Shown piece by piece: positions 6,679 to 32,825 of a DNA stretch of 33,914 nt. The notes beneath the pieces are model-generated. The model saw only the letters and a program-made list of their open reading frames with translations. It did no database searches and had not been told where the DNA came from. The stretch is from a bacterium (GTDB lineage Bacteria > Acidobacteriota > Thermoanaerobaculia > Multivoradales > JAHEKO01): the NCBI GenBank assembly GCA_024224155.1, contig JAAENP010000464.1:1-33914 (forward strand). The letters run 5' to 3'. Every line of letters starts with the position of its first letter. The first letter of the stretch is position 1. A program made the translations under genes and the position numbers.

Positions 6679-9171
6679 TCAAAGCTCGAGGCGTCGAAGG
6701 CGAAGGGCATTGGAGATCACCGATACCGAGCTCAGACTCATGGCCGCACTGGCGAGCATCGGCGATAGCAGCCAGCCGACGAAGGGGTAAAGGACCCCAG
6801 CGGCGACCGGAACGCTCAAGGAGTTGTAGAGGAACGCGAAAAAGAGGTTCTGCCTGATGTTGCCCATCGTGGCGCGGCTCAACCGAAGTGCCCGCAGGAT
6901 GCCGCGCAGATCGCCCTTCACCAGGGTCACTCCGGCGCTCTCGATCGCAACGTCTGTGCCGGTGCCCATCGCGATTCCGATATCTGCCTGGGCCAGAGCG
7001 GGGGCATCATTGACACCATCTCCCGCCATCGCCACCGTTCGTCCTCCGTCTTGAAAGGTCCGCACGATCTCGAGCTTCTCCTCGGGCCGTCGTTCGGCCT
7101 CGACCCTGTCGATACCGAGTCGCTCGGCCACGGCGCCGGCCGTCTCGCGATTGTCACCGGTCACCATGACGACTTCGATCCCGATCCTCTGCAGCTCTCC
7201 AATCAGCTCGCGAGCCGACTCTTTGATCGGGTCGGACACCGCCAGCAGGCCCGCCAGATCCCCGTCATCCGCAACGAAGACCACCGTCGCTCCGGCCGAG
7301 CGCAGGGCGTCCACCTTCTCCCGTGCGACTTCGACCGTCACTCCCAGATCCACGAGATGGGCCTCGTTGCCAACCGCCAACCGGCGACTCCCCGCGCGCC
7401 CGACGACTCCCCTGCCCGGAAGGGCCTGGAAGTCCTCGACCGCCTTCGGTCCCAGGCCCCGCTCGAGCGCCTCCCCGACGATCGCTCGAGCCAGAGGATG
7501 CTCGCTGCCCCGCTCCAGCCCAGCGGCCAGAGTCAGCACATCCGCCTCGCTCCGACCCTCGAGCGCTACTACCCGCTCGAGTCGGGGGCGCCCGTCGGTA
7601 AGTGTCCCGGTCTTGTCCAAAAGCAGCACCTCGGTCTTCCCCAGTGTCTCGAGAGCCTCGGCATCTCGCACCAACACACCCGACCTTGCACCCCGCCCGG
7701 TTCCGACCATGATCGACATCGGAGTCGCCAGTCCCAGGGCACAGGGACAGGCGATGATCAGAACCGCAACCGCATTGACGAGGGCGATCGGCAAGGCCGG
7801 TTCCGGACCCCAGGAATACCACGCCGCAAAGGTCAACAAGGCCACCAGAACCACCGCCGGCACGAAGAACGACGCGACCCGATCCGCCAAGCGCTGGATG
7901 GGGGCACGACTTCGCTGTGCCTCGGCCACCATTTGAACGATACGTGCCAGCAAGGTCTCGGAACCCACTCTCTCGGCCCGGACTACGAGGCCGCCGTTGC
8001 CGTTGACGGTGCCGCCGATCACCGGTTCGCCGACCGTCCTCGACACCGGGATCGGCTCGCCCGTCACCATGGACTCGTCGACATAGCTCTGACCTTCCAG
8101 CACGATCGCATCGACGGGGACCTTCTCTCCGGGCCGGATCCTGAGCCGGTCGCCGACTTCGACTTCGGCGAGATCGATCTCGCTTTCCTCCCCGTCTGAA
8201 CCGATCCTGAGCGCCACCGCCGGGGCTAGCTGCAGGAGTTCCTTGAGGGCCATTGAGGTGCGGCTCCTGGCCTTGAGCTCCAACACCTGTCCGAGCAGCA
8301 CCAGAACCGTGATCACGGCGGCGGCCTCGAAGTAAACCGGAACGGCCCCGCCCGTCGCGCGCATCGACGCCGGGAACAGCCCGGGGAGAAACAGAGCAAT
8401 CAAACTGTACCCGTAGGCCGCTCCGGTACCCATCGCGATCAGCGTGAACATATTGAGATTCAGCGTCCTGAGAGAGCTCCAGCCACGCTCGAAGAACGGC
8501 CGGCCGCACCAAAGGACGACAGGTGTCGCCAGAAGGAACTGCAGCCACACCAACCCGCGATTCCAACCTTGCGGCAACCGCTCCGCCAGATCGAGTCCCG
8601 GCACCATCTCGGACATCGCCAGTAGGAAGACCGGCAGCGTCAACAAGGCGCCGAGCCAGAACCTACGCAGCATATCCACGAGCTCGGGGTTCTCGCCCTC
8701 ATCGATCGCCACGGTCTTGGGCTCGAGAGCCATGCCACATTTCGGGCAGGAGCCCGGCCCCAGCTGCTCGATCTCGGGGTCCATGGGGCACGTGTAGACG
8801 ACGTCATCCGGAGCCGGCGAGGTCGCCGGCTCCGAGCCGGGGTCGACCGCGAGCAGGAACTTCTCGGGGGCCGCCTCGAACCTCCTCTTGCAGCCCTCGC
8901 AGCAGAAGTAGTAGTCGACACCGCCATGTGTCGACTTGTTTTTTGCGGTGGCCGGATCGACCTTCATTCCGCACACCGGATCTGTTGCCTCGGACTCGAG
9001 GAAGTCAGACGGGGACTTGATGAATTTCTCTCGACAGCCGGCGCAGCAGAAGCCGTAGTCGACGCCCTCGTGCTCGTACCGGTGGGCGGCGGTCGCGAGA
9101 TCGACGGTCATTCCGCAGACCGGATCGGTCGACGCGACGCCGGGCTCGGACTGTTGGCGATGCTCAGTCAT
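6679..9171 (-). CDS. copA: Cu(I)-exporting P1B-type ATPase with N-terminal YHS-YHS-HMBD metal domains
   Basis: Inner-membrane copper-exporting ATPase, 830 residues. Seen: two YHS domains (about 15-60 and 62-108), each with DPVCGM and FCCxGC. A heavy-metal-binding domain follows (YTCPMDPEI...CPKCGM, 126-147). Core motifs are TGE (370-372), CPC (475-477), DKTGT (519-523), SEHP (556-559) and GDGVNDAP (717-724). Membrane motifs YN (782-783) and MxxSS (811-815), together with CPC, are the P1B-1 Cu(I) signature. The usual HMA (GMxCxxC) domains are absent. Start ATG 9169-9171 has GGAGAGA at 9181-9187. No copper-regulator gene lies beside it; cusCBA is about 9 kb away in the same window. Confidence 0.96.
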
Positions 9172-13398: not shown

Positions 13399-14091
13399 TC
13401 AGAAGCTGTCTGCCATGGGGTCCCAGAACGGGCCTTCGAGGCCGATATCGGCGAAGATCCGACGCATCTCCGCCGGCCTCGGCCGGCGAGCATCCGGACT
13501 CAAGCGGTCCCCGTACCAGGCGACCGCGAGTCGCCACTGCGTCTCGAGGCTGATGATCGGGCATACCTCGAGGCCTCGTTCGCGACACCAGGCTCGAACG
13601 TGCTCTTCCGACCGGAAGAAGAGCATGGTGCTTCACGTGTAGACGATGTCGTCCCACCAGTGAGCGGCCGGCACCGCGTAGTGGGCCACACAGGAGTCGC
13701 CGCTGAGCTCGCCATCTCGGACCCGCAGCCTGATCGGCTCGAGGCTCTGCCCACACTGAGACTCGACCTCGCCGTCGGTGCTCAAAGCGGCCACGACGCC
13801 CAGGGAGTCCCAGGCGCAGTTGGCGTAGTAGTTCTTACCGGCCTCGCCGGCCTGGCCCGCCACGGTCACCTTGTGCTGGGTCTCGACGCCGGAAAACGGC
13901 GGTGCCATTCGAATCGACACGCCATCATCCTCGAGGACCAGAACGCGACTCGCGTTCAGGCGCCTGTACCCTTCCCGAATATCCGTATCGGCTCGACCCG
14001 TGACGCGAACCATGTCTTCCACGGTCGGTGCCGTCGTCGTCTCGGCGACGTGCCGATAGATGGCGAGCTTGAGCTCGGTATCGAAACTCAC
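13399..14091 (-). CDS. MerB-family organomercurial-lyase-like selenoprotein (in-frame TGA = Sec153)
   Basis: 230 residues if TGA 13633-13635 is read as selenocysteine. MerB cleaves carbon-mercury bonds with two Cys and one Asp. Seen: an N-terminal winged-helix-like region (1-65); YYANCAWDSLG, in which Cys92 and Asp95 match E. coli MerB Cys96 and Asp99 (C-x-x-D); ESQC with Cys113 at the MerB SSHC position; then DDIVYT-[TGA]-STMLFFRSEEH. In MerB the second catalytic Cys159 is followed by four residues and FF; the TGA has exactly that spacing. Homology continues in the same frame after the TGA (HVRAWCRERG, WRLAVAWYGDR). A hairpin resembling a bacterial SECIS follows at once. GTG start (14089-14091) overlaps the upstream stop as GTGA. 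Alternative: a nonsense mutation, judged much less likely. The actual metal substrate is not shown. Confidence 0.88.
13601..13625 (-). promoter_or_regulatory. Bacterial SECIS-like hairpin just downstream of the UGA
   Basis: In the mRNA, UGCUC pairs with GAGCA (lower stem, 5 bp), UUC bulges on the 5' side, UUCC pairs with GGAA (upper stem, 4 bp) and the apical loop is GGUC. The loop is 20-23 nt after the UGA. In E. coli fdhF, as I recall it, the minimal SECIS has a bulged U, a 3-bp upper stem and the same GGUC loop at 19-22 nt. An alternative continuous 8-bp stem (UGCUCUUC/GAAGAGCA) with a 9-nt loop uses the same bases. The hairpin lies inside coding sequence, as bacterial SECIS elements do. 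Confidence 0.85.
13633..13635 (-). other. Probable selenocysteine (UGA) codon
   Basis: Single in-frame TGA inside the MerB-like gene. The reading frame is open for 152 codons before it and 77 codons after it, and family similarity is present on both sides. It falls at the position of the second catalytic Cys of MerB. The next downstream ATG (13624-13626) has no purine-rich ribosome site, so independent initiation there is not favoured. Confidence 0.87.
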
Positions 14092-14693
14092 AAGACCCTC
14101 TCCCCGGTTCGCCTGGGAACGAAGCATGGCACCCGCCGACGGTACCTCTCGTAGTCGCTCCCAAATCGCTCCATCAACTCTCGCTCTTCGAGCACGATCA
14201 TAAGCCAACCGACCGGCACCGACGCCGCAACCACCACATAGACCCACAGGTAGTTGCAGATCAGAGCGAAGCCGGTGATGCCGATCAACGCTCCGAAATA
14301 GCGGGGATGACGCACGATGCCGTAGGGCCCGTCGGTCAGGAGTCTGCCGGAACTTCCACTGGATAGCTCCGGCAGACCGGCCAGGACCGGGAACCTCAGC
14401 TTTCGCAGCACCCTCCAGTCCCAGGCCGCGCCGGCAAGGTAGAGAGCCACGCCCATCCCGATGGTGATCGGCCGATAGCCGAAGTGCTGCCGCATCAGCG
14501 GCGCGCGCACCGTCCAGATGGCGTAGACCGCCAACAGGCAAATCGCGGCAACGATCGTGTAGCTCGCAACGGGACCCAGCCGGCGCCAGAACGAAGCGAA
14601 GGGGTGGATCAGGAGCCAGAAGAGCAGGGCCGCCGGAAGCGCAGCAAGCATGAGCCCGGCGAGGACATCCAGAATACGCGCTGCCAGTTCCAT
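14088..14693 (-). CDS. Isoprenylcysteine carboxyl methyltransferase (ICMT/PEMT-like) family membrane protein
   Basis: 201 residues, about five membrane helices. Seen: DGPYGIVRHPRYFGALI is the RHPxY SAM-binding signature of ICMT/phospholipid-methyltransferase-like enzymes, and the C-terminal EERELMERFGSDYERYRRRVP is the second conserved element (E-E-x-x-L...Y-x-x-Y). Bacterial members methylate varied and mostly unknown substrates. The stop overlaps the start of the MerB-like selenoprotein (GTGA, 14088-14091), so the two products are probably made together. ATG 14691-14693 precedes the first membrane helix directly. Confidence 0.88.
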   Translation of the reverse strand: MELAARILDVLAGLMLAALPAALLFWLLIHPFASFWRRLGPVASYTIVAAICLLAVYAIWTVRAPLMRQHFGYRPITIGMGVALYLAGAAWDWRVLRKLRFPVLAGLPELSSGSSGRLLTDGPYGIVRHPRYFGALIGITGFALICNYLWVYVVVAASVPVGWLMIVLEERELMERFGSDYERYRRRVPCFVPRRTGERVL

Positions 14694-15906: not shown

Positions 15907-17937
15907 ATGAAGATCCGTACTCAAATCGCCATCGCGTTCCTGTTCCTGGCTATCCTGCCGATGACGGCAATCGTTCTCTACAGCTACGTCTCGTCGCTGA
16001 GCGCCGTTCGCGAAGCCGTCGAGGCCGAGGCCGAGAGCCTCACCAGCGACATGGAGAATCGAATGACCCAAGTCCGGGGCGATCTGCGTCGCCGGGTCGA
16101 ACGGATCTCCGCTTTGCCCTTCAGACGCTGGGCCTTCGAAGCGGAAACCGAAAAAGAGCGCGAGGAGCTCTACGGCTCGATGATGGCGGAGCTCGGAGAG
16201 ACCGCGCCATTGGTCACGTCCTTCGAATTCGTGCCCGAGTACCCGGGCACGGCGGAGGACGCGGTGCCGAGCCCGGACGTTGAGACTGCCTCGGAGCTCA
16301 TTCCGGCTCCACCGCGCCGCCCGCCGCCGCCCCCCGCGCCGATCGTGATCGACATGCGCGAGATGCTGAAGACGGTGGAAGCCGGCATCGAGAACCTCGA
16401 CGCCGAGTTGATCCCGGATACCGACCGGGAGGAGCTTATCGAACAGGCCAAGCTGGGCCTCGAATTCGTCCAAGAAAAAGCCGAAGTCTTCAACCTGCAC
16501 GCCGGTCGGTTGATCGAGATCCGAGCTGAAACCGAGGAGTTGCACCGGCTGACCGAGACCGCCCCCACGGCCGAAGCAGAAGAAGACACGTACCGCATGA
16601 TCTTCAGCCCGGAGGTGGAAGTGCCGGTCTACGAGGACGGCGAGATGGTCGGCGAGATCCGGGCTCGGGTCGCCAACGAGAAGCTTCTGGAGCGGGTCCT
16701 TCATCGCACCCTGCGCGAGCGGGGTGAGGTACCGTTTGCGGTCGACACCGAAGGCAACTTGTTCGCGGCGAGTGATGAGGACCGCGGGACCCTACTCGGG
16801 TTGGGGCTCCAGGAGCCCGTCGATGCGGAACGGATCACAGACCAAGAGGTCTTTGGCGACTGGATCGTCGCGACCAGCGCGGACCAGGCAACGGGATTGA
16901 CTTTCGGCATTGCCCGCCCAATCCGCGATTCCATCACCGAGATGCGCTCGACGGCGTTGCGTAACTTCGGATTCGGTACCGGGTTGATCGGCCTCGCTCT
17001 TTTGGGTGTCCTGCCGCTGTCGCGCCGGATTACCCACGGACTCAAGCTCGTTGCCGAGAGCGCGGAGCGGGTAGCTGGTGGCGACCTCGAAGCCCGGGTG
17101 CCCCTCCAGTCCAGAAGCGAGATCGGCCAGCTGGCCAAGGCGTTCAACAACATGGCCCAGGACCTCGAAGAGAACCAGCAGAGACTCATCGAGAGCGAGC
17201 GCCTGCAGGTTGAATTCGATCGCAAGACCGAGGAACTGGAGGAAGCCCGCCGGTTTCAACTCTCGCTCCTGCCCAAGAGGCTCCCCGACCACCCCTCTTT
17301 CGACCTGGCCGCGATGATGAGAACCGCCACCGAAGTCGGAGGCGACTACTACGATTTTCGTGTCGCCGACGATGGCACCCTGACCGTGGCCATCGGCGAC
17401 GCCACCGGGCACGGCGCGAAGGCCGGAACCATGGTGACCGTGGTCAAGAGCCTGTTTTCCGCCTACCCGCCGGGAGGCGACCTGGCGGAGTTCCAGAAGA
17501 AGGGTGCCGACGCGATCAAGCGTATGGCGCTGGGGCGGATGTCGATGGCGCTGACTCTCGCTCGGCTGACAAAGGGCAGGCTCACCCTCTGCGCCGCCGG
17601 AATGCCGCCCGCTCTCCTGCACCGAGCGGCGACCGGAAAGGTAGAAGAAATCGCCATCGAAGGCATGCCTCTGGGTGGACTCGACTTTACCTATCGCCAA
17701 GTGTCGGTGAGCATCGACGCCGGCGACACGCTGTTGCTGATGAGTGACGGTTTCCCGGAGCTCCCCGATCGAGACGGAAACACCCTCGGCTACGAGCGCG
17801 CCGCCGAGCTCTTCGCCGCCACCGCCGGCTCGAAGCCCAACGAAGTGATCGAGCACTTGCTCGCGAGAGCTCGAGATTGGGCGGGCGACTCCGCCCCCGC
17901 CGACGATGTCACCTTCGTGGTCGCGCGAGTTCGATAG
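15907..17937 (+). CDS. Membrane sensor HAMP-SpoIIE PP2C-type serine phosphatase (RsbU-like)
   Basis: 676 residues. Seen: membrane helix 1 (about 7-28); a large extracytoplasmic region (29-350) containing a Pro-rich run (PAPPRRPPPPPAP, about 133-145) and acidic helices; membrane helix 2 (about 353-371); HAMP (371-424); a coiled coil (425-455); and a SpoIIE phosphatase domain (463-676). Metal-binding Asp residues are seen in EVGGDYYDF (Asp480), GDATGHG (Asp498), LMSDGFPE (Asp614) and PADDVTF (Asp667). Such proteins dephosphorylate anti-sigma-antagonist proteins in partner-switching pathways; no partner gene is in the window. ATG 15907 starts the first helix. Its 3' end overlaps the convergent cusA-like gene by 29 bp. 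Confidence 0.94.
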   Translation: MKIRTQIAIAFLFLAILPMTAIVLYSYVSSLSAVREAVEAEAESLTSDMENRMTQVRGDLRRRVERISALPFRRWAFEAETEKEREELYGSMMAELGETAPLVTSFEFVPEYPGTAEDAVPSPDVETASELIPAPPRRPPPPPAPIVIDMREMLKTVEAGIENLDAELIPDTDREELIEQAKLGLEFVQEKAEVFNLHAGRLIEIRAETEELHRLTETAPTAEAEEDTYRMIFSPEVEVPVYEDGEMVGEIRARVANEKLLERVLHRTLRERGEVPFAVDTEGNLFAASDEDRGTLLGLGLQEPVDAERITDQEVFGDWIVATSADQATGLTFGIARPIRDSITEMRSTALRNFGFGTGLIGLALLGVLPLSRRITHGLKLVAESAERVAGGDLEARVPLQSRSEIGQLAKAFNNMAQDLEENQQRLIESERLQVEFDRKTEELEEARRFQLSLLPKRLPDHPSFDLAAMMRTATEVGGDYYDFRVADDGTLTVAIGDATGHGAKAGTMVTVVKSLFSAYPPGGDLAEFQKKGADAIKRMALGRMSMALTLARLTKGRLTLCAAGMPPALLHRAATGKVEEIAIEGMPLGGLDFTYRQVSVSIDAGDTLLLMSDGFPELPDRDGNTLGYERAAELFAATAGSKPNEVIEHLLARARDWAGDSAPADDVTFVVARVR

Positions 17938-20900
17938 CTCCCGATTCCTCCTTCGGAAACAGCGGGCCGCGTTTCAGTCCCCTTCCGCGCCAAATGAAAT
18001 AGATCGCTGGGAAGACCAACAGCTCCGCCGCGAACGAGGTGAATACCCCGCCGACCATGGGGGCGGCTATGCGCCGCATGACGTCGGAGCCGGTCCCGGT
18101 CGCCCAGAGAATCGGCACCAGAGAGAAGAAGGTCGCCATGACCGTCAGCATCTTGGGGCGAATTCTCTGCACGGCGCCGTGATCCACGGCTTCGGCCAGG
18201 TCGCGGAAGCTCTTCATCCGGTCTTTTCGACTCCAGTCCTCGTAGGCTATGTCGAGGTAGAGCAACATCACGACGCCGGTCTCGGCCGCCAGACCCGCCA
18301 GGGCGATCACGCCGACCCAGACCGCTATCGACCAGTTGTAGTCGAGAATCCAGAGCAGCCAGACCGAGCCGACCAGGGAAAACGGAATCGCCGAAAGCAC
18401 GATGGCAGTCTTGAGGATCGACTTGAGATGGAAGTAGAGGATCAGGAAGATCAGCGTCAGGGTGAGCGGCACGATCAGGAGCAGCCGGGCCTTGGCTCGC
18501 TGCATGTACTCGTACTGGCCAGACCAGAAGATCGTGTAGCCCGCCGGCACCACCACCTGCTCGGTCACCTCCTGCTGCGCCCGCTTCACCCAGGTGCCCA
18601 CGTCGATGCCTCGCAGGTCGACGTAGACCCAAGCGTTGGGGCGCGCGTTTTCCGATTTGATCCCGGGCGGCCCCTGGCGAAGCTGGATCTCGGCCAGCTG
18701 TCCGAGCGGCACCTGAGCGCCGGTTGGCGTGGCCACCAGAATCTCGCGCAGAGCGACCGGATTGTCCCGCAGCTCTCGCGGATACCGGACGTTGATCGGG
18801 TAGCGCTCGAGCCCTTCGACCGTGGACGAGACATTCATGCCGCCTACCGCCGATTGGATGACGTCCTGGACGTCGCCCACCGTCAGCCCGAACCGAGATG
18901 CCGCCTGGCGATCGATATCGAAGTCGAGATAGCTGCCACCCATCACTCTCTCGGCATAGGCGGAGAGGGTTCCCGGTAGCGGTTTGACCACGGCTTCGAT
19001 CTTCTTGGCGATCTCCTCGAGCACCGTCAGGTCGGGACCCCCGACCTTGATTCCGACCGGCGTCTTGATGCCGGTCGACAGCATGTCGATGCGGGTCTTG
19101 ATCGGCATCGTCCAGGCATTGGTGAGGCCTGGGAACTGAATCGCCGCATCCATTTCCGCGATGAGATCGTCCTTGGTCAGACCGGGTCGCCATTCGGAAG
19201 GGTCTTTCAAAATGATCGTCGTCTCGAGCATCGAGAGCGGCGCCGGATCCGTCGCCGTCTCGGCGCGCCCGGCCTTGCCCAGAACCGATTCGACCTCCGG
19301 AAAGGACCGAATGATCTTGTCGGTCTGCTGCAGAATCTCCTTGGCCTTGGTGATCGACACACCAGGGAAGGTCGTTGGCATGTACAGCAGATCTCCTTCC
19401 CAGAGCGGAGGCATGAATTCCGAGCCGATGCCCTGGAGTGGCACGAGCGTCAACGCGAGCACCGCCAGCATGAGGACGATCACTCCCCAGCGCCAACGCA
19501 GCGCCCAGTTGAGGACCGGCGTGTAGAGAAAGCGTAGGAAGCGCGAGACCGGGTGTCTCTTCTCGCTGAAGATCTTGCCCCTGACGAACCAGAACATGAG
19601 AACCGGAACGACGGTTACCGCCACGATGGAGGACAGTGCCATGGCGTAGGTCTTGGTAAACGCCAGGGGCTTGAACAGGCGCCCCTCCTGTGCCTCCAGA
19701 GTGAAGATCGGCAGGAACGAGACCGTGATCACGAGCAGGGTGAAGAACAGCGTCGGTCCTACCTCTTGGGCCGAGCGAATGATGATCTCCAGGTGCGAAC
19801 GCTTGCCGCGCCACTCCTCGTAGTGCTTGTGCGCGTTCTCGACCATGATCACCGCGGCGTCGACGAGGACGCCGATCGAAATCGCGATGCCTCCCAGCGA
19901 CATGATGTTGGCCCCCAGGCCCTGGTACTTCATGATCACGAAGGCCAAGAGGATCGAGACCGGTATGGACACGATCGCGACAAAGGCCGACCGGAAGTGA
20001 AACAGGAAAACCAGGCACACGAGGGCCACGACGATCGACTCTTCGATCAATGTGGTCGTGAGCGTGTCGATCGAACGCTCGATGAGCCCGGTCCGGTCAT
20101 AGGCCACCGAGATCTCGACGTCATCCGGCAGGCCGGCTCTGAGCTCCGTTAGGCGCTCCTTGACCCTGGCAATCGTCGAGAGGGTGTCGGCCCCCCAGCG
20201 CACCACCACGACGCCCCCGACCGTCTCGCCCTCGCCGTTCCAGTCAGCCAGCCCGCGCCGGATCTCGGGCCCGATCGTGACGTTGGCGACATCCCGGAGA
20301 ACGATCGGCGTCCCACCGGGGCCACTGCCCAGGACAACCACCTCGAGGTCTCGGATCTCCTTGATGTAGCCGCGCCCTCGCACCATGAACTCCCGTTCTG
20401 ACATCTCGACGAGACGGCCACCGACCTCGACGTTCGATCGCTGGATCGCCCGGCGGACCGCCTGCAGAGGCAGCCCGTAGGCGCGCAGCCGTATCGGATC
20501 GACCTCGACCTGGTACTGGCGCACGAAGCCGCCGATCGAGGCCACCTCGGCAACTCCCTCGACCGAGGCGAGACCGTACTTGAGATACCAGTCCTGATAA
20601 CTCCGGAGATCGGCCAGTGAGCGCTGCTCGGAGTTGAGGACGTACATGAAAGCCCAGCCCACACCGGTGGCATCGGGCCCGAGCTGCGGCGAAACACCCT
20701 CGGGCAGATCGGCGGACAGACCCGACAGGTACTCGAGCACTCGCGAGCGGGCCCAGTAGAGGTCGGTCCCGTCCTCGAAGAGCACGTAGACGAACGAGAA
20801 GCCGAAGAAGGAATACCCGCGCACGACCTTGGCGAAGGGCACGGCCAGCATCTTGGTCGTGATCGGGTAGGTCACCTGGTCCTCGATCACCTGAGGCGCC

Positions 20901-21067
20901 TGACCGGGGAAATCCGTAAAGACAATCACCTGGACGTCCGAGAGATCCGGTATCGCGTCGATCCGGGTCTCTTTGATCGCCCACACGCCGGCGAGGATGG
21001 CGACGACGAGGCCGACCGTCACCAGGGGTTGGTTCCTGAGCGACCACTCGATCAACCTAGCGAGCAT
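17909..21067 (-). CDS. cusA: HME-RND copper/silver efflux pump inner-membrane subunit
   Basis: 1052 residues, the normal RND length. Proton-driven pump that moves Cu(I)/Ag(I) from periplasm or cytoplasm to the outer-membrane channel. Seen: an N-terminal membrane helix with ETRIDAIPDLSDVQV, a CusA/CzcA signature; SIGGFVRQYQVEVDP; GIAISIGVLVDAAVIMVENAHKH in TM4, whose Asp and Glu are the proton-relay region; LLYMPTTFPG and TRIDMLSTGIKTP, in which Met residues match the CusA methionine cluster. These Met residues favour Cu/Ag over Zn/Co. The start overlaps the end of cusB by 11 bp; the end overlaps the convergent phosphatase gene by 29 bp. Confidence 0.96.
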   Translation of the reverse strand: MLARLIEWSLRNQPLVTVGLVVAILAGVWAIKETRIDAIPDLSDVQVIVFTDFPGQAPQVIEDQVTYPITTKMLAVPFAKVVRGYSFFGFSFVYVLFEDGTDLYWARSRVLEYLSGLSADLPEGVSPQLGPDATGVGWAFMYVLNSEQRSLADLRSYQDWYLKYGLASVEGVAEVASIGGFVRQYQVEVDPIRLRAYGLPLQAVRRAIQRSNVEVGGRLVEMSEREFMVRGRGYIKEIRDLEVVVLGSGPGGTPIVLRDVANVTIGPEIRRGLADWNGEGETVGGVVVVRWGADTLSTIARVKERLTELRAGLPDDVEISVAYDRTGLIERSIDTLTTTLIEESIVVALVCLVFLFHFRSAFVAIVSIPVSILLAFVIMKYQGLGANIMSLGGIAISIGVLVDAAVIMVENAHKHYEEWRGKRSHLEIIIRSAQEVGPTLFFTLLVITVSFLPIFTLEAQEGRLFKPLAFTKTYAMALSSIVAVTVVPVLMFWFVRGKIFSEKRHPVSRFLRFLYTPVLNWALRWRWGVIVLMLAVLALTLVPLQGIGSEFMPPLWEGDLLYMPTTFPGVSITKAKEILQQTDKIIRSFPEVESVLGKAGRAETATDPAPLSMLETTIILKDPSEWRPGLTKDDLIAEMDAAIQFPGLTNAWTMPIKTRIDMLSTGIKTPVGIKVGGPDLTVLEEIAKKIEAVVKPLPGTLSAYAERVMGGSYLDFDIDRQAASRFGLTVGDVQDVIQSAVGGMNVSSTVEGLERYPINVRYPRELRDNPVALREILVATPTGAQVPLGQLAEIQLRQGPPGIKSENARPNAWVYVDLRGIDVGTWVKRAQQEVTEQVVVPAGYTIFWSGQYEYMQRAKARLLLIVPLTLTLIFLILYFHLKSILKTAIVLSAIPFSLVGSVWLLWILDYNWSIAVWVGVIALAGLAAETGVVMLLYLDIAYEDWSRKDRMKSFRDLAEAVDHGAVQRIRPKMLTVMATFFSLVPILWATGTGSDVMRRIAAPMVGGVFTSFAAELLVFPAIYFIWRGRGLKRGPLFPKEESGAIELARPRR

Positions 21068-22574
21068 GTCCGGCCCCCTCAGACGATGGCGCCATCTCCT
21101 GACGTTGAGCCATCATCTTCTGGATCGCTTCCTGGAGATTCGCCTCGGAGTCGATCAGAAACTGAGCCGAGGTCACCACCCGCTCACCCTCTTCGAGACC
21201 CTCGAGCACCTCGACGAACTCGACTCCCTCGTGCCCGAGATTGACCGTCCGCGGGGCGAAACGGCCTTCGCCCAAATCGACCACGACTACGTCGCGCTGC
21301 CCCGTCCGTAGAACCGCGAGCGAGGGCACGGTCAACACCGCCCGAGCCGCAACGGGCTCGAAGGTAACGGTCGCGAACATGCCGGCACGCAGTTTTCGGT
21401 CCGGGTTGGGAACCTCGAGCTTCACCCTCAGCGTCCTCGTCTTTTCGGAGAACTCCGGCTCGAGGAAGCGGACGGTGCCGCGGAAGGTCTCACCCGGAAA
21501 GTACGTGAAAGTGACATCCGCGGGGCTGCGCTCGCGAATCCAGGCCACCTGGTCCTCGAAGATCTCGACCGATAGCCAGAGGGAGGAGAGATTGGCGATG
21601 TGGTAGGTCTCCATGCCCGGCTTGACCGCCATGCCCTCCAGTCCCGGCATGCGCTTCATCACCAGGCCGCTGGACGGAGCCACGACCTTGAGCGTGCGGA
21701 AGATCTCGCCGGTCTCCTCGAGCCTCGAGATCTGCTCTGGCGCGATATCCCAATACGAAAGCCGAGTCCGCGCCGCATCGACCAGTGCCTCGGCCCTGCG
21801 CAGGGCGTCGTCCGCCGTGCCGACGAACTTCTTGGCATACTCGATCGCCGACAGCAGCTCCTGCTCGGTCTGCAACAGCTCGGGCGCGTAGATCTCGAAA
21901 AGCGGCTGTCCTCTTCTGACCGGCTCGCCGACGTAGTTGACGTAGACCTTCTCCACCCAGCCGGTGTACTTCGTCGTTACCGTAACCATCCGCTCCTGGT
22001 CGTACTCGAGGTAGCCGACCGTGCGAATCTCGTGGGTGAGGTCACGCCGCTCCACCAGAACGCTCTGGACGTTCATGTTCTGGACGGTGGCGGGATCGAT
22101 GGATACCTCCGTGCCGGGACCGATGGCCCGGACCGCTTCGTCCGCGTAAACGGGCACGTAGTCCATCCCCATCTCGTCCTTGGCAGGAACCGGTGAGGTA
22201 ATCGTCGGGTTCATCGGGTTGCGGTAGAAGAGGATCTCCCCTTTGCTCCGAGCCGTGGAGCTCCCGGCGGCTCTCCCAGCCGTGCTCTGTCCTTTGGCGC
22301 GCACCAGATTCATGCCGCAGATCGGACATTCCCCGGGGTTCTCTTCGAGAATGTGAGGATGCATCGGACAGGTCCATAGCTCGTTCTCGATCTCGGCGGC
22401 GGAGCCGGCCGCTGCCTCCGCTGCTTCGCGATAACCGAGCCGAGCCCGCAGCAAGCTGTCCAGGGGGTGCAAGTGAAGCGGGTCGAAGAACACCACGAAG
22501 AAGATCAGAAAGCCGGTGCCGATCCAGAGCACGGGAGCGATCCAGGCTCTCGGGTTTCTGTTGCTACGCGTCAT
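21057..22574 (-). CDS. cusB: Copper efflux periplasmic adaptor (membrane fusion protein) with HMBD domains
   Basis: 505 residues. Links CusA to the outer-membrane channel and binds metal. Seen: a membrane anchor (about 12-31); a heavy-metal-binding domain WTCPMHPHI...CPICGM (67-88); a second HMBD-like element YRNPMNPTITSPVPAKDEMGMDYVPVY-type (117-143) in which Met replaces Cys; then the typical adaptor barrel-sandwich region (KYTGWVEKVYVNYVGEPVRRGQ) and beta-barrel (FLEPEFSEKTRTLRVKLEVPNP). The C-terminus is Met/Gln/Ser-rich. Overlaps cusC by 11 bp and cusA by 11 bp, so the three genes are translationally linked. Confidence 0.95.
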   Translation of the reverse strand: MTRSNRNPRAWIAPVLWIGTGFLIFFVVFFDPLHLHPLDSLLRARLGYREAAEAAAGSAAEIENELWTCPMHPHILEENPGECPICGMNLVRAKGQSTAGRAAGSSTARSKGEILFYRNPMNPTITSPVPAKDEMGMDYVPVYADEAVRAIGPGTEVSIDPATVQNMNVQSVLVERRDLTHEIRTVGYLEYDQERMVTVTTKYTGWVEKVYVNYVGEPVRRGQPLFEIYAPELLQTEQELLSAIEYAKKFVGTADDALRRAEALVDAARTRLSYWDIAPEQISRLEETGEIFRTLKVVAPSSGLVMKRMPGLEGMAVKPGMETYHIANLSSLWLSVEIFEDQVAWIRERSPADVTFTYFPGETFRGTVRFLEPEFSEKTRTLRVKLEVPNPDRKLRAGMFATVTFEPVAARAVLTVPSLAVLRTGQRDVVVVDLGEGRFAPRTVNLGHEGVEFVEVLEGLEEGERVVTSAQFLIDSEANLQEAIQKMMAQRQEMAPSSEGAGHAR

Positions 22575-23928
22575 GGCTGGGAACCTTCACACGGCTTTCG
22601 AGCGGCGCACCGATGGCGCCCTCGAGCTCCGCGATTCCGATCAGATAGTCTGCTTGGGCCCGGGCCAGAGCGGTGTGCGCTTCGAAGCGCACGTGCTCGG
22701 CGTCCAGAAGAGCCAGGGCATCCAGGGTTCCGGCAATGTAGCCGGCCAAAGCCGACTCCTCAGCCTCCTCCGCCTGCACCACCAGGAGATCATCGATCAG
22801 GCGCAGCTGCCGCCAGTCGAGCTCCAAGCGCTGCGCCAGGTCGCCGATCGCCGCCACGATCTCCGCGCGAGTCGCTCGCAGGCCTTCCTCGGCGGCGGTC
22901 TCGTGGCCAACCGCTTCTTCGACCTCGGCCGTCAAGCTCCTGCGCCGAACCGGCAGTGTAATCCCGCCCCGGATACCGACGATGTCGTCACCGTTGCCTT
23001 CCGGCGGCTGAAGCCGGCCGGCGGCGTCGCTCCTCGGGTCGACCACCGTGTAGGTCAGTCCGAGGCTGAAATCCGGCCGCCGCGATTTTTCCGCGAGCTC
23101 GACTCGCGTCCGCGCGTTTCGGATCCTGGCCTCAGCCGCATGCAGCTCCGGGCGCAGGTGCTGCGCCTTTTCGAGGAGTGGCTCCAGATTGAGCGAGATT
23201 TCGGGGATCGTCGGCATCCCTTCGGCCAAGATCGGCGTCAAGGCGGGGCGATCGCGCAACGTGTTGAGGCGGGCCTCCAGACCGATCCGGCGCCTTCGAA
23301 TCTCCAGCAGGTCGTTCTCGGCAAGGGTAATCTCCGCCTGCAGCTTGACCACTCCCTGGCCGCGACCAGCTCCGGTCGCGTATCGAGCCCGAGCGATCTC
23401 CTCGTGCTGAGAGAGATGGTCCCGAAGCTCCTCCCCGATCACCCTGCGTCGGTCGAGGTACAGAAGCTCATAGAACAAGCGCCGGGTCTCGGTGAGGAGC
23501 TCGAGGCGCAGTGCCTCGACCTCGGCATCGAGAGCCGCTGCCTCCAGAAGAGCGGTCCGTTCTTTGAGCGCCAGCTTGCCGGCCCACGGGACCGCCTGCG
23601 CCAGAACCACCGCGATCTGCTGGGGACCGGTTCGCGTCTCCGGCGAGTCCAGGAACGTCGTCAGGCTGGCGGTCGGATCCGGCAATGCTCGCAGCCGCGG
23701 CGCGCGGTGTCTGGCGGCCAGGGCCCGTGCCGCGGCGGCGGCGATGTCTGGATTGCGCTCCAGCACCTCCACGGCGAGCTGGCGCAAAGGTGGCTGTTGG
23801 ATGCCCTTCAGAATTGGGGCTAGCCCGGTCTCACTGCCCGGTTCGCCCTCGGCCGCCGCCTGGCTCACGGCCGAGCCGGTCACGGTCGCTACCAGCAGCA
23901 GCGCAACAAATCGTCTTTTTGCAAACAT
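22564..23928 (-). CDS. cusC: TolC-family outer-membrane efflux channel
   Basis: 454 residues. Seen: a signal peptide (FVALLLVATVTGSAVSQAAA), long helical repeats typical of TolC (LPDPTASLTTF, QAVPWAGKLALKERTALLEA, RRLFYELLYLDRR), and the matching second half (LRPELHAAEARIRNARTRVELAEKSRRPDFSLGLTY split around the barrel strands). The start is ATG 23926-23928, chosen because GGAGGAG lies directly upstream; an in-frame TTG is one codon earlier. First structural gene of the efflux set. No Cys for lipidation near the signal cleavage site. Confidence 0.93.
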   Translation of the reverse strand: MFAKRRFVALLLVATVTGSAVSQAAAEGEPGSETGLAPILKGIQQPPLRQLAVEVLERNPDIAAAAARALAARHRAPRLRALPDPTASLTTFLDSPETRTGPQQIAVVLAQAVPWAGKLALKERTALLEAAALDAEVEALRLELLTETRRLFYELLYLDRRRVIGEELRDHLSQHEEIARARYATGAGRGQGVVKLQAEITLAENDLLEIRRRRIGLEARLNTLRDRPALTPILAEGMPTIPEISLNLEPLLEKAQHLRPELHAAEARIRNARTRVELAEKSRRPDFSLGLTYTVVDPRSDAAGRLQPPEGNGDDIVGIRGGITLPVRRRSLTAEVEEAVGHETAAEEGLRATRAEIVAAIGDLAQRLELDWRQLRLIDDLLVVQAEEAEESALAGYIAGTLDALALLDAEHVRFEAHTALARAQADYLIGIAELEGAIGAPLESRVKVPSHDA

Positions 23929-24011
23929 CAAACTCCTCCAAGAAATCCAAAGTCGGCTTGACCGCCCACTCGAGAGTGGGTCGGTCGAACACGGGGCCTC
24001 TCAGAGGAGAA

Positions 24012-29639: not shown

Positions 29640-30554
29640 ATGACAGCTAGACGAAGACTGGCAATGGGTGCGGGGTTGGTATTGCTGCTCTCTCTCGGAG
29701 CCGGCACCGCGTTCGGCGCGCCAGAAACCGAACCCGAGATGGCCGCGAGCTACGTGGGTGGTGACATGTGCGTCGAATGCCACGACACCTACGAGGACGA
29801 CCTCGCTCAAACACAGCACGGTAAGGCGGGTTTCGCCAAGCTCTCGGAGCACGGCTGCGAGTCGTGTCATGGCCCGGGGAGCCTCCACGTCGAGGACCCC
29901 GAGGCTTACCAACCCAGAGTCTCGGATCTGAGCAAAGCCAAGCAGTCGGCCATGTGCCAGACCTGCCACGATGGCGGCAGTCAGTTCTTCTGGCAGGGCA
30001 GCGCCCATGACACTCGTGGGCTCTCCTGCACCGACTGCCACGGGATCCACGACTTCAAGTCGGAGACCGCACAGCTGAAGACCAGCTCGACCACGGAACA
30101 GTGCTTCAGCTGCCACAAGGACGTGCGAGCCGAGACCTGGAAGCGCTCGCATCATCCGATCCGCGAGGGCCAGATCGGCTGCAACGATTGCCACAACCCC
30201 CATGGCGCGCAGTCCGACAAGATGGTCAATGCGGCGTCCGTCAACGACCAGTGCTACTCGTGCCACGCCGAGAAGCGCGGACCGTTCCTCTGGGACCACG
30301 CTCCGGTGCGCGAAAGCTGCTCCAACTGCCACACGCCGCACGGCTCGAACCACTTGAAGCTGCAGAAGACTTCGGTGCCCTACAACTGCCAGCAGTGCCA
30401 CGCCAACACCCGACACCCCGGCACGATCTACGACGCGCAGACACTCGCGGATGGCACGCGACCCAGCAACCGGGACTTCAGCCGCTCGTGCCTCAACTGC
30501 CACAACGCGATTCACGGTAGCAACCATCCGTCCGGCTGGGCGCTGTACCGGTAG
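29640..30554 (+). CDS. Decaheme c-type cytochrome (DmsE/MtrA-like)
   Basis: 304 residues. Periplasmic electron carrier thought to pass electrons through a porin across the outer membrane. Seen: a signal peptide (LAMGAGLVLLLSLGAGTAFGA) and ten CxxCH heme sites: CVECH, CESCH, CQTCH, CTDCH, CFSCH, CNDCH, CYSCH, CSNCH, CQQCH and CLNCH. Ten hemes and about 300 residues match the DmsE/MtrA/PioA family. ATG 29640-29642 has AAAGGAG 6 nt upstream. The next gene, 9 nt later, is an MtrB/PioB-like porin, the usual partner. No DMSO reductase and no outer-surface cytochrome (MtrC/OmcA type) lies in the window. Confidence 0.95.
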   Translation: MTARRRLAMGAGLVLLLSLGAGTAFGAPETEPEMAASYVGGDMCVECHDTYEDDLAQTQHGKAGFAKLSEHGCESCHGPGSLHVEDPEAYQPRVSDLSKAKQSAMCQTCHDGGSQFFWQGSAHDTRGLSCTDCHGIHDFKSETAQLKTSSTTEQCFSCHKDVRAETWKRSHHPIREGQIGCNDCHNPHGAQSDKMVNAASVNDQCYSCHAEKRGPFLWDHAPVRESCSNCHTPHGSNHLKLQKTSVPYNCQQCHANTRHPGTIYDAQTLADGTRPSNRDFSRSCLNCHNAIHGSNHPSGWALYR

Positions 30555-30563
30555 AAGGGAGAC

Positions 30564-32825
30564 ATGATGATCAGAGACAACATGCGACAGGCTCTGACGA
30601 TCGTCGTTGCGTCTTTGCTGCTCTTCGCCACAGGCGCGGGAGTTGCGACGGCGGGTGACGACGACGGTTTCCGCCTCTGGGTCGAGCCACTCGACTTCTG
30701 GGTGCTCGAGAAGGATCAAGACACCAACTCTTCGAAGTTTCAGGAGTATCGCGATCTCCAGAGCGGGCTGTACGCGAATCTCAAAGCCTACGGCGAGAGC
30801 GAGGACGGCGACCGAACGCTCGCGATCCGGATGAGCGCCATCGGGCGTGACCACGCCCGCTACAACGTCGACTACGGCGTCGCCGGTAGCTACAAGGTCA
30901 ACCTCGACTACAACAAGATCCCGCATCTCTTCGGCAACGACGCCACCCTGCTCTGGAACCAGACGGCGGTCAATCGGTTTGAGCTGGCCGACTCGACCCA
31001 GCTGGCGTTGCAGGAGGCGGTGATTGCCCAGCGGGCCGGCGGGGGCTCGGTCAACTTCGGCTTTCTCGAGCCCTTGATCCGACCGTTCGTGGACGTCGCC
31101 AATCGGACCGACCTCGGTCTCCAGCGCGACCGCACGCGAGCCCGCTTCGATTTCGGCAATCTAGGCAAGTTCGCCTGGGGCTTCGAGTACAAGCACGAGA
31201 ACCGTGACGGCAGCCGTCCGATGGGTGCCGCGTTCGGCTTCAACAACGTTCAAGAGATCCCCGAGCCGATCAACTACAACACCACCGATGTCGAGTTCTC
31301 CGGCGAATTCAACGGCAAGAAGGGCGGTGCGCGCTTCGGCTATCGCAACTCCCAGTTCAAGAACACCCTCGACTCGGTGCTCTGGGACAACCCCTGGCGA
31401 GCGACCGACAGTACCAACCCCATCGCCTACCTCGGCCCCAACACGACCGACGCGGGTCCCTCTCGCGGTCTCGCCAGCCTGGCGCCGGACAACGAAGCCA
31501 ACCTGCTCTTCTTCGACGGCCGCGCGAGAGCGGGCGGCTGGTGGTTCAACGGCAGCCTGACCATGAACACCATGACCCAGAATGAGTCGCTGCTGCCCTT
31601 CACAATCAACACCGCCATTGTGGGCACCGACGAGAGCACGGGGCGCACCTTCAACGCGGCGAGCTCCGGCCTGCCGGTCAATGCGGCCGACACCGAAGTC
31701 GAAACCATGAACGTTTCCGCCAACGCGGGGACCGAGCTCGGCGACGATTTCAGCCTGACGCTACGGTATCGAACGTATGATTACGACAACTCGTCGCCGC
31801 GAGTCACCTTCCCCGGGTACGTCAGGCTCGATGCCGTTTGGGAGCCGCCGGCCCTGATCACCGTGCCCTACGACTGGACCAAGGACAATCTGGGCGCGGA
31901 GCTCGGTTGGGACGCCACCAATTCCACCCACCTGACCCTCGGCTACTTCATGGAGAGCTGGGATCGCACCTTCCGCGAGATCCACACCTCAGACGAGGAC
32001 ACCATCAAACTAACGGTCGATAGCCGCCCCAACAGCAAGGTCTCGGTGCGGGCCAGCTGGGCGACCGGCGATCGGACGACCGGCGAGTACGACGTCGAGG
32101 CCCAGGAGGTGTTCTTCGTCCATCCCGAGGGAATCAACCAGCAGCCCGGTCTGCGCAAGTTCGACGAGGCCGAGCGGGATGTCGACGACTATGACTTCTC
32201 CGTGCAGCTGTTTCCCAGGGACTCCTGGAATCTGAGCTTCGGATTGTCGGCCCGCGAAGAGGATTATCCCAACAGCGAGTTCGGCCTTCAGTCGGACGAG
32301 ATCATGAGCTACAACTTCGAGTTCGGATACGCTCCGGGCGCCCATCTCAACTGCTACGTCTTCGGCAACATGGCCGACCGCGAGGTTTTCCAGAGATCGC
32401 GGCAGTCCGGCGCAACGCTCTCGACCAATCCCCTGGACAACTGGAGCGTGCTCCTCGACGAGGACACCACGACCTGGGGCTTTGGTCTCAACTCCAAGAA
32501 CGACAATGGTTGGAGCTGGGATGCGGTGCTCAATATCTCGGACTCCGATGGCGCAGGGGACTTCACTACGCCCTCTGGTGGCCGGACAGTGGTCGACATC
32601 GACAACTACGAGGACATCGAGCTGACCAGCCTGTGGGTGAAAGCGGGCTACGAGATCACCGAGAACGCCAGCTTCGGCGTGTTCTTCTACTTCGAGGACT
32701 ACACCATCGACAGCTTCATTCTCCAAGGTATCGTTCCCTACCTGCCACAGTCGATTCTCTTGGCACCGAACGACGCCGACTACGAAGCCCACATGTTCGG
32801 AATCAACCTGAAGCTGAAGATCTAG
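30564..32825 (+). CDS. MtrB/PioB-family outer-membrane beta-barrel protein
   Basis: 753 residues. Large porin that sheathes a multiheme cytochrome. Seen: a signal peptide (ALTIVVASLLLFATGAGVATA), then alternating amphipathic strands throughout, rich in Tyr/Trp/Asn/Asp; phrases such as YNVDYGVAGSYKVNLDYNKIPH and LTLRYRTYDYDN fit MtrB/PioB strands. It ends with a terminal aromatic/hydrophobic strand (HMFGINLKLKI). The N-terminal CxxC of Shewanella MtrB is absent; only one Cys is seen in the mature protein. ATG 30567 is an alternative start, one codon later, with slightly better ribosome-site spacing (AAGGGAG at 30556-30561). Operon with the decaheme cytochrome. Confidence 0.92.
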   Translation: MMIRDNMRQALTIVVASLLLFATGAGVATAGDDDGFRLWVEPLDFWVLEKDQDTNSSKFQEYRDLQSGLYANLKAYGESEDGDRTLAIRMSAIGRDHARYNVDYGVAGSYKVNLDYNKIPHLFGNDATLLWNQTAVNRFELADSTQLALQEAVIAQRAGGGSVNFGFLEPLIRPFVDVANRTDLGLQRDRTRARFDFGNLGKFAWGFEYKHENRDGSRPMGAAFGFNNVQEIPEPINYNTTDVEFSGEFNGKKGGARFGYRNSQFKNTLDSVLWDNPWRATDSTNPIAYLGPNTTDAGPSRGLASLAPDNEANLLFFDGRARAGGWWFNGSLTMNTMTQNESLLPFTINTAIVGTDESTGRTFNAASSGLPVNAADTEVETMNVSANAGTELGDDFSLTLRYRTYDYDNSSPRVTFPGYVRLDAVWEPPALITVPYDWTKDNLGAELGWDATNSTHLTLGYFMESWDRTFREIHTSDEDTIKLTVDSRPNSKVSVRASWATGDRTTGEYDVEAQEVFFVHPEGINQQPGLRKFDEAERDVDDYDFSVQLFPRDSWNLSFGLSAREEDYPNSEFGLQSDEIMSYNFEFGYAPGAHLNCYVFGNMADREVFQRSRQSGATLSTNPLDNWSVLLDEDTTTWGFGLNSKNDNGWSWDAVLNISDSDGAGDFTTPSGGRTVVDIDNYEDIELTSLWVKAGYEITENASFGVFFYFEDYTIDSFILQGIVPYLPQSILLAPNDADYEAHMFGINLKLKI

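Follow-up and report, generated by a model that had tools for sequence, protein, structure and literature searches.

The window analysed here, a 33,914-nucleotide stretch of bacterial DNA, carries on its minus strand (13399-14091) a gene whose 230-residue product, judged from its sequence, is a MerB-superfamily selenoprotein distinct from both SaoL and canonical MerB. The frame runs from a GTG start at 14091 to a TGA stop at 13399-13401 and is interrupted once, by the in-frame TGA reported in the initial annotation, which proved to be codon 153 (13633-13635, minus strand) and falls in the column of MerB Cys159. Sequence alone could hardly make a firmer case for insertion of selenocysteine (Sec) at this codon. 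We consider it fairly likely that the protein is a MerB-family selenoenzyme acting as an organometal lyase through Cys92, Sec153 and Asp95. MerB is the known methylmercury-cleaving enzyme, and should organomercury be a substrate of the selenium forms, they would provide selenium-dependent, MerA-independent breakdown of methylmercury in many soil and sediment phyla.

The MerB-like frame and its catalytic residues

When TGA was translated as Sec (U), codon 153 and its flanking residues read WWDDIVYT-U-STMLFFRSEEH. The Pfam MerB match spans the TGA (residues 66-194; E = 3.2e-28; 98.7 bits against a gathering cut-off of 27), and membership of the MerB superfamily (Pfam PF03243) is firm. Constraint persisted 3' of the TGA, with dN of 0.16 and dS of 0.88 between the window gene and a homologue from the same genus (L010), and five further pairs had dN well below dS behind the TGA. 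No NCBIfam model scored above its cut-off for the window protein, so standard annotation would probably stop it at residue 152, in keeping with the initial expectation that the gene would be missed.

A 14-sequence profile was aligned to solved structures with HMMER and matched MerB2 with an E-value of 5.1e-21. In this alignment Cys92 (codon at 13816-13818, minus strand) fell on MerB Cys96 and residue 153 on Cys159; Asp95 (13807-13809, minus strand) fell on Asp99, a position occupied by Ser in MerB2. C92 and D95 both belong to the NCAWD motif. The membership of the MerB family, the reading of NCAWD as the source of the Cys96 and Asp99 equivalents, and the placement of Sec at the second catalytic cysteine, all claimed from the letters of the sequence at the outset, were borne out by these comparisons. 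Across 84 TGA-bearing members, the three catalytic columns read C/D/U in 83 and C/E/U in one, while the Cys117 column held Cys in 69; the window protein has Cys113 there.

An AlphaFold2 model of the window protein, built from 14 sequences, reached a pLDDT of 94.2 and predicts a MerB fold. When the predicted model was searched with Foldseek, all 11 matches at E ≤ 0.001 were MerB or MerB2. The N-terminal winged helix of the predicted model also resembles those of the metal regulators MntR and DtxR.

The recoded codon, its hairpin and the selenocysteine machinery

Read codon by codon, 93 of 96 homologous loci carried TGA at the codon-153 column and two (L023 and L024) carried Cys. These 96 loci comprise 80 from named genome contigs and 16 from close genomes, the window gene included; the remaining one of the 96 (L117) was dropped, its TGA lying outside the motif. 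The contig scan found 123 relatives, of which 80 were kept, and its starting alignment held TGA members only, so its TGA share (79 of 80) is an overestimate. Among 59 close genomes, the own genome counted, 16 had a homologue, with exactly one TGA in 14 and none in 2. The same profile was also run on 297 Acidobacteriota genomes, where 10 of the 11 matches above 200 bits had one TGA, and on 396 Actinomycetota genomes, where 18 of the 20 matches above 150 bits did, one of the 18 also having a TAG (both counts partly codon-read). In the joint alignment, Cys occupied the Sec column in 15 of 112 rows. In one close relative (L156, genome G217) the Sec site is Trp and the NCAWD motif reads CSAWD; it looks like a diverged member that has lost both soft ligands.

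By record titles and taxonomy, the TGA loci come from Acidobacteriota, Planctomycetota, Calditrichota, Chloroflexota, Verrucomicrobiota, Gemmatimonadota, Eiseniibacteriota, Actinomycetota, Thermomicrobiota, Fidelibacterota, Myxococcota, Sysuimicrobiota and candidate division KSB1, although individual labels may be wrong because the records are mostly metagenome bins. The same gene and recoding signal in many bacterial phyla probably mark a large selenoprotein family.

A SECIS-like hairpin with a 7-bp stem and a GGUC loop (13613-13610) lies at 13603-13620 on the minus strand, with 19 bases between the UGA and the loop. In the window it reads UUCUUCC-GGUC-GGAAGAG, its outermost pair being U-G. 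After loci with identical core DNA were removed, 84 loci (83 distinct) were left, over which 95.2% of stem cells were paired, compared to 90.1% in shuffles, none of 500 of which was as high. Taking related loci as independent, 34 cells were altered on both sides versus 10.4 in shuffles (0 of 500), and four pairs had double-sided change versus 1.8 (6 of 500). Slid controls were 44-64% paired with 2-11 double changes.

Codon choice pointed in the same direction. The GGUC loop, present in 81 of 84 loci, falls on the Arg160 and Ser161 codons. Arg160 was CGG in 82 of 84 loci versus 431 of 1491 elsewhere in the same genes, and Ser161 was TCG in 81 of 81 versus 307 of 883; the binomial tails are near 1e-41 and 7e-38, respectively, under independence of the loci, which does not hold fully. 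Folding energy was mildly better than that of synonymous recodings, with at most 5 of 200 recodings as stable in 11 of 84 loci. Since folding energy supports little per locus, the case for the hairpin rests on covariation and codon choice. The covariance model R1 matched the window at 13635-13588 with 64.6 bits, a score that follows by construction because R1 was built from these loci. The Cys relatives in the joint alignment lack a fixed FRSE motif, so this motif looks to be partly imposed by the RNA. Rfam gave no match above the gathering score near the window gene. The GGUC loop resembles that of E. coli fdhF. We regard the hairpin as a bacterial SECIS-like element and a putative SelB site.

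The genome to which the window belongs is 96.6% complete and encodes the machinery that Sec insertion would draw on. A check for selA, selB, selC and selD, suggested with the original claim, found all of them: selA at 434.5 bits, selB at 355.7 bits, tRNA-Sec at 70.5 bits (anticodon TCA by ARAGORN) and selD at 355.9 bits on contig 284 (L048). The selD gene has an in-frame UGA of its own (CAGUASK), which means that the Sec machinery is itself Sec-dependent. In 43 of 50 further genomes with TGA loci, corresponding to 50 of the 79 contig loci, selA was above cut-off; the seven others are draft assemblies. Among close genomes selA is near-universal (52 of 59 above cut-off) and is therefore not discriminating.

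Could the TGA be a true stop, left by a broken gene or a sequencing error, or be read as Trp? The single TGA in an otherwise open frame and the Trp of L156 would both fit such an explanation, which we nevertheless regard as extremely improbable. The same TGA recurs across independent assemblies and phyla, so sequencing error is not credible, and it is accompanied by a covarying hairpin and by constraint behind it. The Cys of NCAWD is missing from L156 as well, as expected for a divergent member, and TGA also serves as the stop codon of the window gene. The initial annotation had named three findings that would count against Sec: homologues without Cys or Sec at residue 153, a genome without Sec machinery and a raw-read error. 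The homologues had TGA or Cys, with Trp only in L156, the Sec genes are present, and the recurrence of the TGA in independent assemblies speaks against the third.

Relatives with two selenocysteines

A weak second match in the own genome (L199, contig 547, 1947-2732, minus strand) had TGA at both catalytic Cys columns (AAUGVD ... DDFURKSVLFWSEEH). Searching 396 Acidobacteriota genomes gave eight such double-UGA loci in seven genomes, the own one included (L199, L200, L202, L204, L205, L206, L207 and L214), all with U-x-x-D followed by F/Y-U and with Asp99 kept. Two of them (L202 and L206) have one TAA within their match ranges, and the stretch holding both TGAs is open in each. Two fragments (L208 and L209) cover the second site only. 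The own genome also holds a third, distant MerB-like frame (L165, contig 221) that matched at 24 bits and is free of TGA.

The profile search of 396 Actinomycetota genomes likewise returned full-length two-TGA matches. Three of these (L189 in G609, L190 in G599 and L191 in G717) have a double UGA with Glu at position 99 and run on into a P-loop ATPase stretch, which Pfam AAA matched in both proteins tested. Two other genomes (G706 and G725) matched the ATPase part only. The sister of the three fused loci on the tree, L220, has Cys and Sec. Pfam MerB fitted both double-Sec types (2.7e-13 for L199 and 2e-13 for L191). An AlphaFold2 model of a double-Sec protein, built from five sequences, was of middling confidence (pLDDT 68.9), and Foldseek matched it to MerB2 at 1.7e-11. 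Three double-Sec proteins from Acidobacteriota, two of the fused type and three with a single Sec all stayed below the cut-off of every NCBIfam model.

Behind the second UGA, the eight Acidobacteriota loci have a GGUC hairpin whose closing pair is U-A instead of C-G, and R1 scored these hairpins at 16-27 bits, a range whose lower end a Cys relative reached by chance (16 bits). Behind the first UGA comes a different conserved stem, whose loop is CGUGC in all but one locus (there CGUCG) and which shows one double-sided pair change. On the 112-row tree, which is unrooted and does not determine direction, the Acidobacteriota and Actinomycetota double-Sec groups are separate, and well-supported branches require two changes for the double-Sec state. 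Elsewhere among the MerB-like sequences, L023, L024, L168 and L170 carry Cys at the Asp99 position (C-x-W-C ... C); two of these four are on plasmids and one is annotated as an organomercurial lyase.

We tentatively propose, as a possibility that falls somewhat short of likely, a broad superfamily of selenium-dependent MerB. It would consist of a widespread single-Sec branch, with Sec at the Cys159 position, and two separate double-Sec groups with a diselenol site at positions 96 and 159, one of them fused to AAA for possible metal release. Soil and sediment bacteria that Cys159 screens count as MerB-less would then be able to cleave organomercury, or other organometals, without MerA. One large survey used Cys159 to screen MerB homologues and, in the portion of the text available to us, names Acidobacteria that have MerA and no MerB (PMC8261052); a protein whose annotation ends at the UGA would not pass such a filter. 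As natural pairs of catalytic selenols, the double-Sec forms would offer a clean test of selenium versus sulfur in metal capture.

Proposed function and comparison with known systems

From the MerB mechanism, as described in the available part of PMC4525700, we infer by analogy how carbon-metal cleavage might proceed. SelB, charged tRNA-Sec and the GGUC hairpin would place Sec at UGA 153. Within the MerB-like fold, Cys92 and Sec153 would form a soft-ligand pair, with Asp95 as the proton relay. The thiolate/selenolate pair would capture an organometal cation, for which methylmercury is the prime candidate by the same analogy. Asp95 would then protonate the carbon, the hydrocarbon would depart, and a carrier or small thiols would take over the metal. 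Sec, which is expected to bind soft metals more tightly and to ionise at lower pH, would give the site a tighter grip on the metal while being ionised at neutral pH. Among mimics of the lyase, selones are reported to be faster than sulfur compounds in the part of PMC11639659 available.

We asked what the surroundings of the gene say about mercury. Upstream lies a gene for a PEMT/ICMT-like membrane methyltransferase (14088-14693, minus strand; Pfam PEMT 1.3e-9). This gene shares its last four bases with the beginning of the selenoprotein gene and is probably co-transcribed with it in the window. It had no relative in 85 homologous loci and is not a conserved partner. We rejected a conserved operon partner more generally: the top neighbour family occurred in 9 of 85 loci, in two of those at less than 300 bases, and the best neighbour count within 300 bases was 4 of 85 (mechanical ORFs). 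MerA was above cut-off in none of 14 close genomes with the TGA form versus 8 of 45 other close genomes (Fisher p = 0.18), so there is no MerA link either way. With no MerA in the 14 close carriers and no regular neighbour, nothing ties the gene to mercury. By the available portion of the 2021 survey, 906 of 1795 merB-carrying genomes are also without MerA (PMC8261052). Plasmids gave 26 records with MerB matches, all below 60% identity; phages gave no MerB matches and PADLOC no match.

Other metal-related genes were seen by eye in the window. A heavy-metal P-type ATPase with YHS-like repeats (6679-9171, minus strand) shares its strand with a CusABC-like efflux set (17909-23931), and a related ATPase is near the homologue in one same-genus locus (L051). 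On the plus strand (29640-32825), a multihaem CxxCH cytochrome is followed by a long outer-membrane-barrel-like protein, resembling an MtrA/MtrB pair. In two other genomes, MerA-like flavoproteins (G043:C24:163530-164882 and G003:C282:16389-17741) fell short of the MerA cut-off at 405-408 bits, and each match contains one TGA; the former is about 260 bases from a MerA above cut-off. These two may be selenoproteins.

Two other functions deserve weighing against an organomercury lyase. A MerB-fold selenoprotein that is no lyase, serving instead to sequester or hand over soft metals or as a redox protein with a Cys92-Sec153 selenenylsulfide, is unlikely but is the sort of role that the absence of a mer-gene link would fit. 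A Cys/Sec pair is equally suited to metal binding and redox work, and the predicted N-terminal winged helix is like that of MntR and DtxR. However, canonical MerB shares this winged helix, and the proton-relay Asp95, kept in all but one of the TGA members (which has Glu), would be needless for a mere binder. It is less probable still that the protein is a MerB-type lyase whose natural substrate is not organomercury, such as organotin, organolead, methylated metalloids or another natural organometal. The very wide spread of the gene, together with the lack of MerA in its close carriers, would suit that substrate range, and the 2021 survey, in the part available, discusses a broader organometal role of MerB variants (PMC8261052). 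Against it, the catalytic trio is the same as in mercury-cleaving MerB, and selenium chemically prefers mercury (PMC11639659, part available). An organometal lyase with methylmercury as its leading candidate substrate is the function we favour.

Membership of the SaoL family, which belongs to a Sec-assisted organometal system, had been raised as a possibility in the initial annotation. NCBIfam SaoL (NF040728) was among the best matches (E = 3.1e-12), and SaoL, like the window protein, is a MerB-like predicted selenoprotein according to the accessible part of PMC13188914. The window protein nevertheless scored 46.7 bits against a cut-off of 140, and we rejected the assignment. The SaoL model was above cut-off in none of 44 genomes, with a best score of 64.9 of 140 bits. 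SaoL has the motif CU, in contrast to TU in the window protein (Thr152 precedes the Sec), and Cys preceded U in none of the 93 TGA loci. We therefore regard membership as highly improbable, the comparison being by model score and motif, with the Sec column inferred from profile coordinates. SaoL is the organometallic lyase of the SAO system; beside the window gene and its relatives, no gene family recurs regularly in 85 loci.

The novelty of the family was considered next to published catalogues. A groundwater-genome survey by Deng et al. from 2026 reportedly holds unvalidated new candidates and may contain the window family. Among the 119 families and subfamilies of prokaryotic selenoproteins catalogued in 2026, SaoL with its CU motif is the sole MerB-like entry in the part available (PMC13188914), and the corresponding part of PMC9312934 lists a MerB-like selenoprotein under SaoL's accession. 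No MerB-like selenoprotein besides SaoL appears in the main texts, as far as available, of PMC13188914, PMC9312934, PMC12013277, PMC2398784, PMC11639659, PMC8261052 and PMC4525700, and a term search of the accessible text of PMC5029168 was without matches.

The window protein differs from canonical MerB as well. It scored far below the equivalog or exception cut-offs of NF009710 and NF033555 (38.6 of 193 and 35.1 of 200 bits). With respect to the canonical signature Cys96/Asp99/Cys117/Cys159, as given in the available part of PMC8261052, it has Cys92, Asp95 and Cys113, and Sec in place of Cys159. MerB of plasmid R831b (PDB 3F0O and 3F2F; VIA Z 15.6, rmsd 3.9, 179 residues to the predicted model) has the positions C96, D99 and 159 and the N-terminal winged helix in common with the window protein, but Cys159 where the latter has Sec. 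The closest solved structure to the predicted model is MerB2 (PDB 5C17; VIA Z 19.2, rmsd 2.9, 187 residues), in which positions 99 and 159 are Ser and Cys; the window protein has Asp and Sec there.
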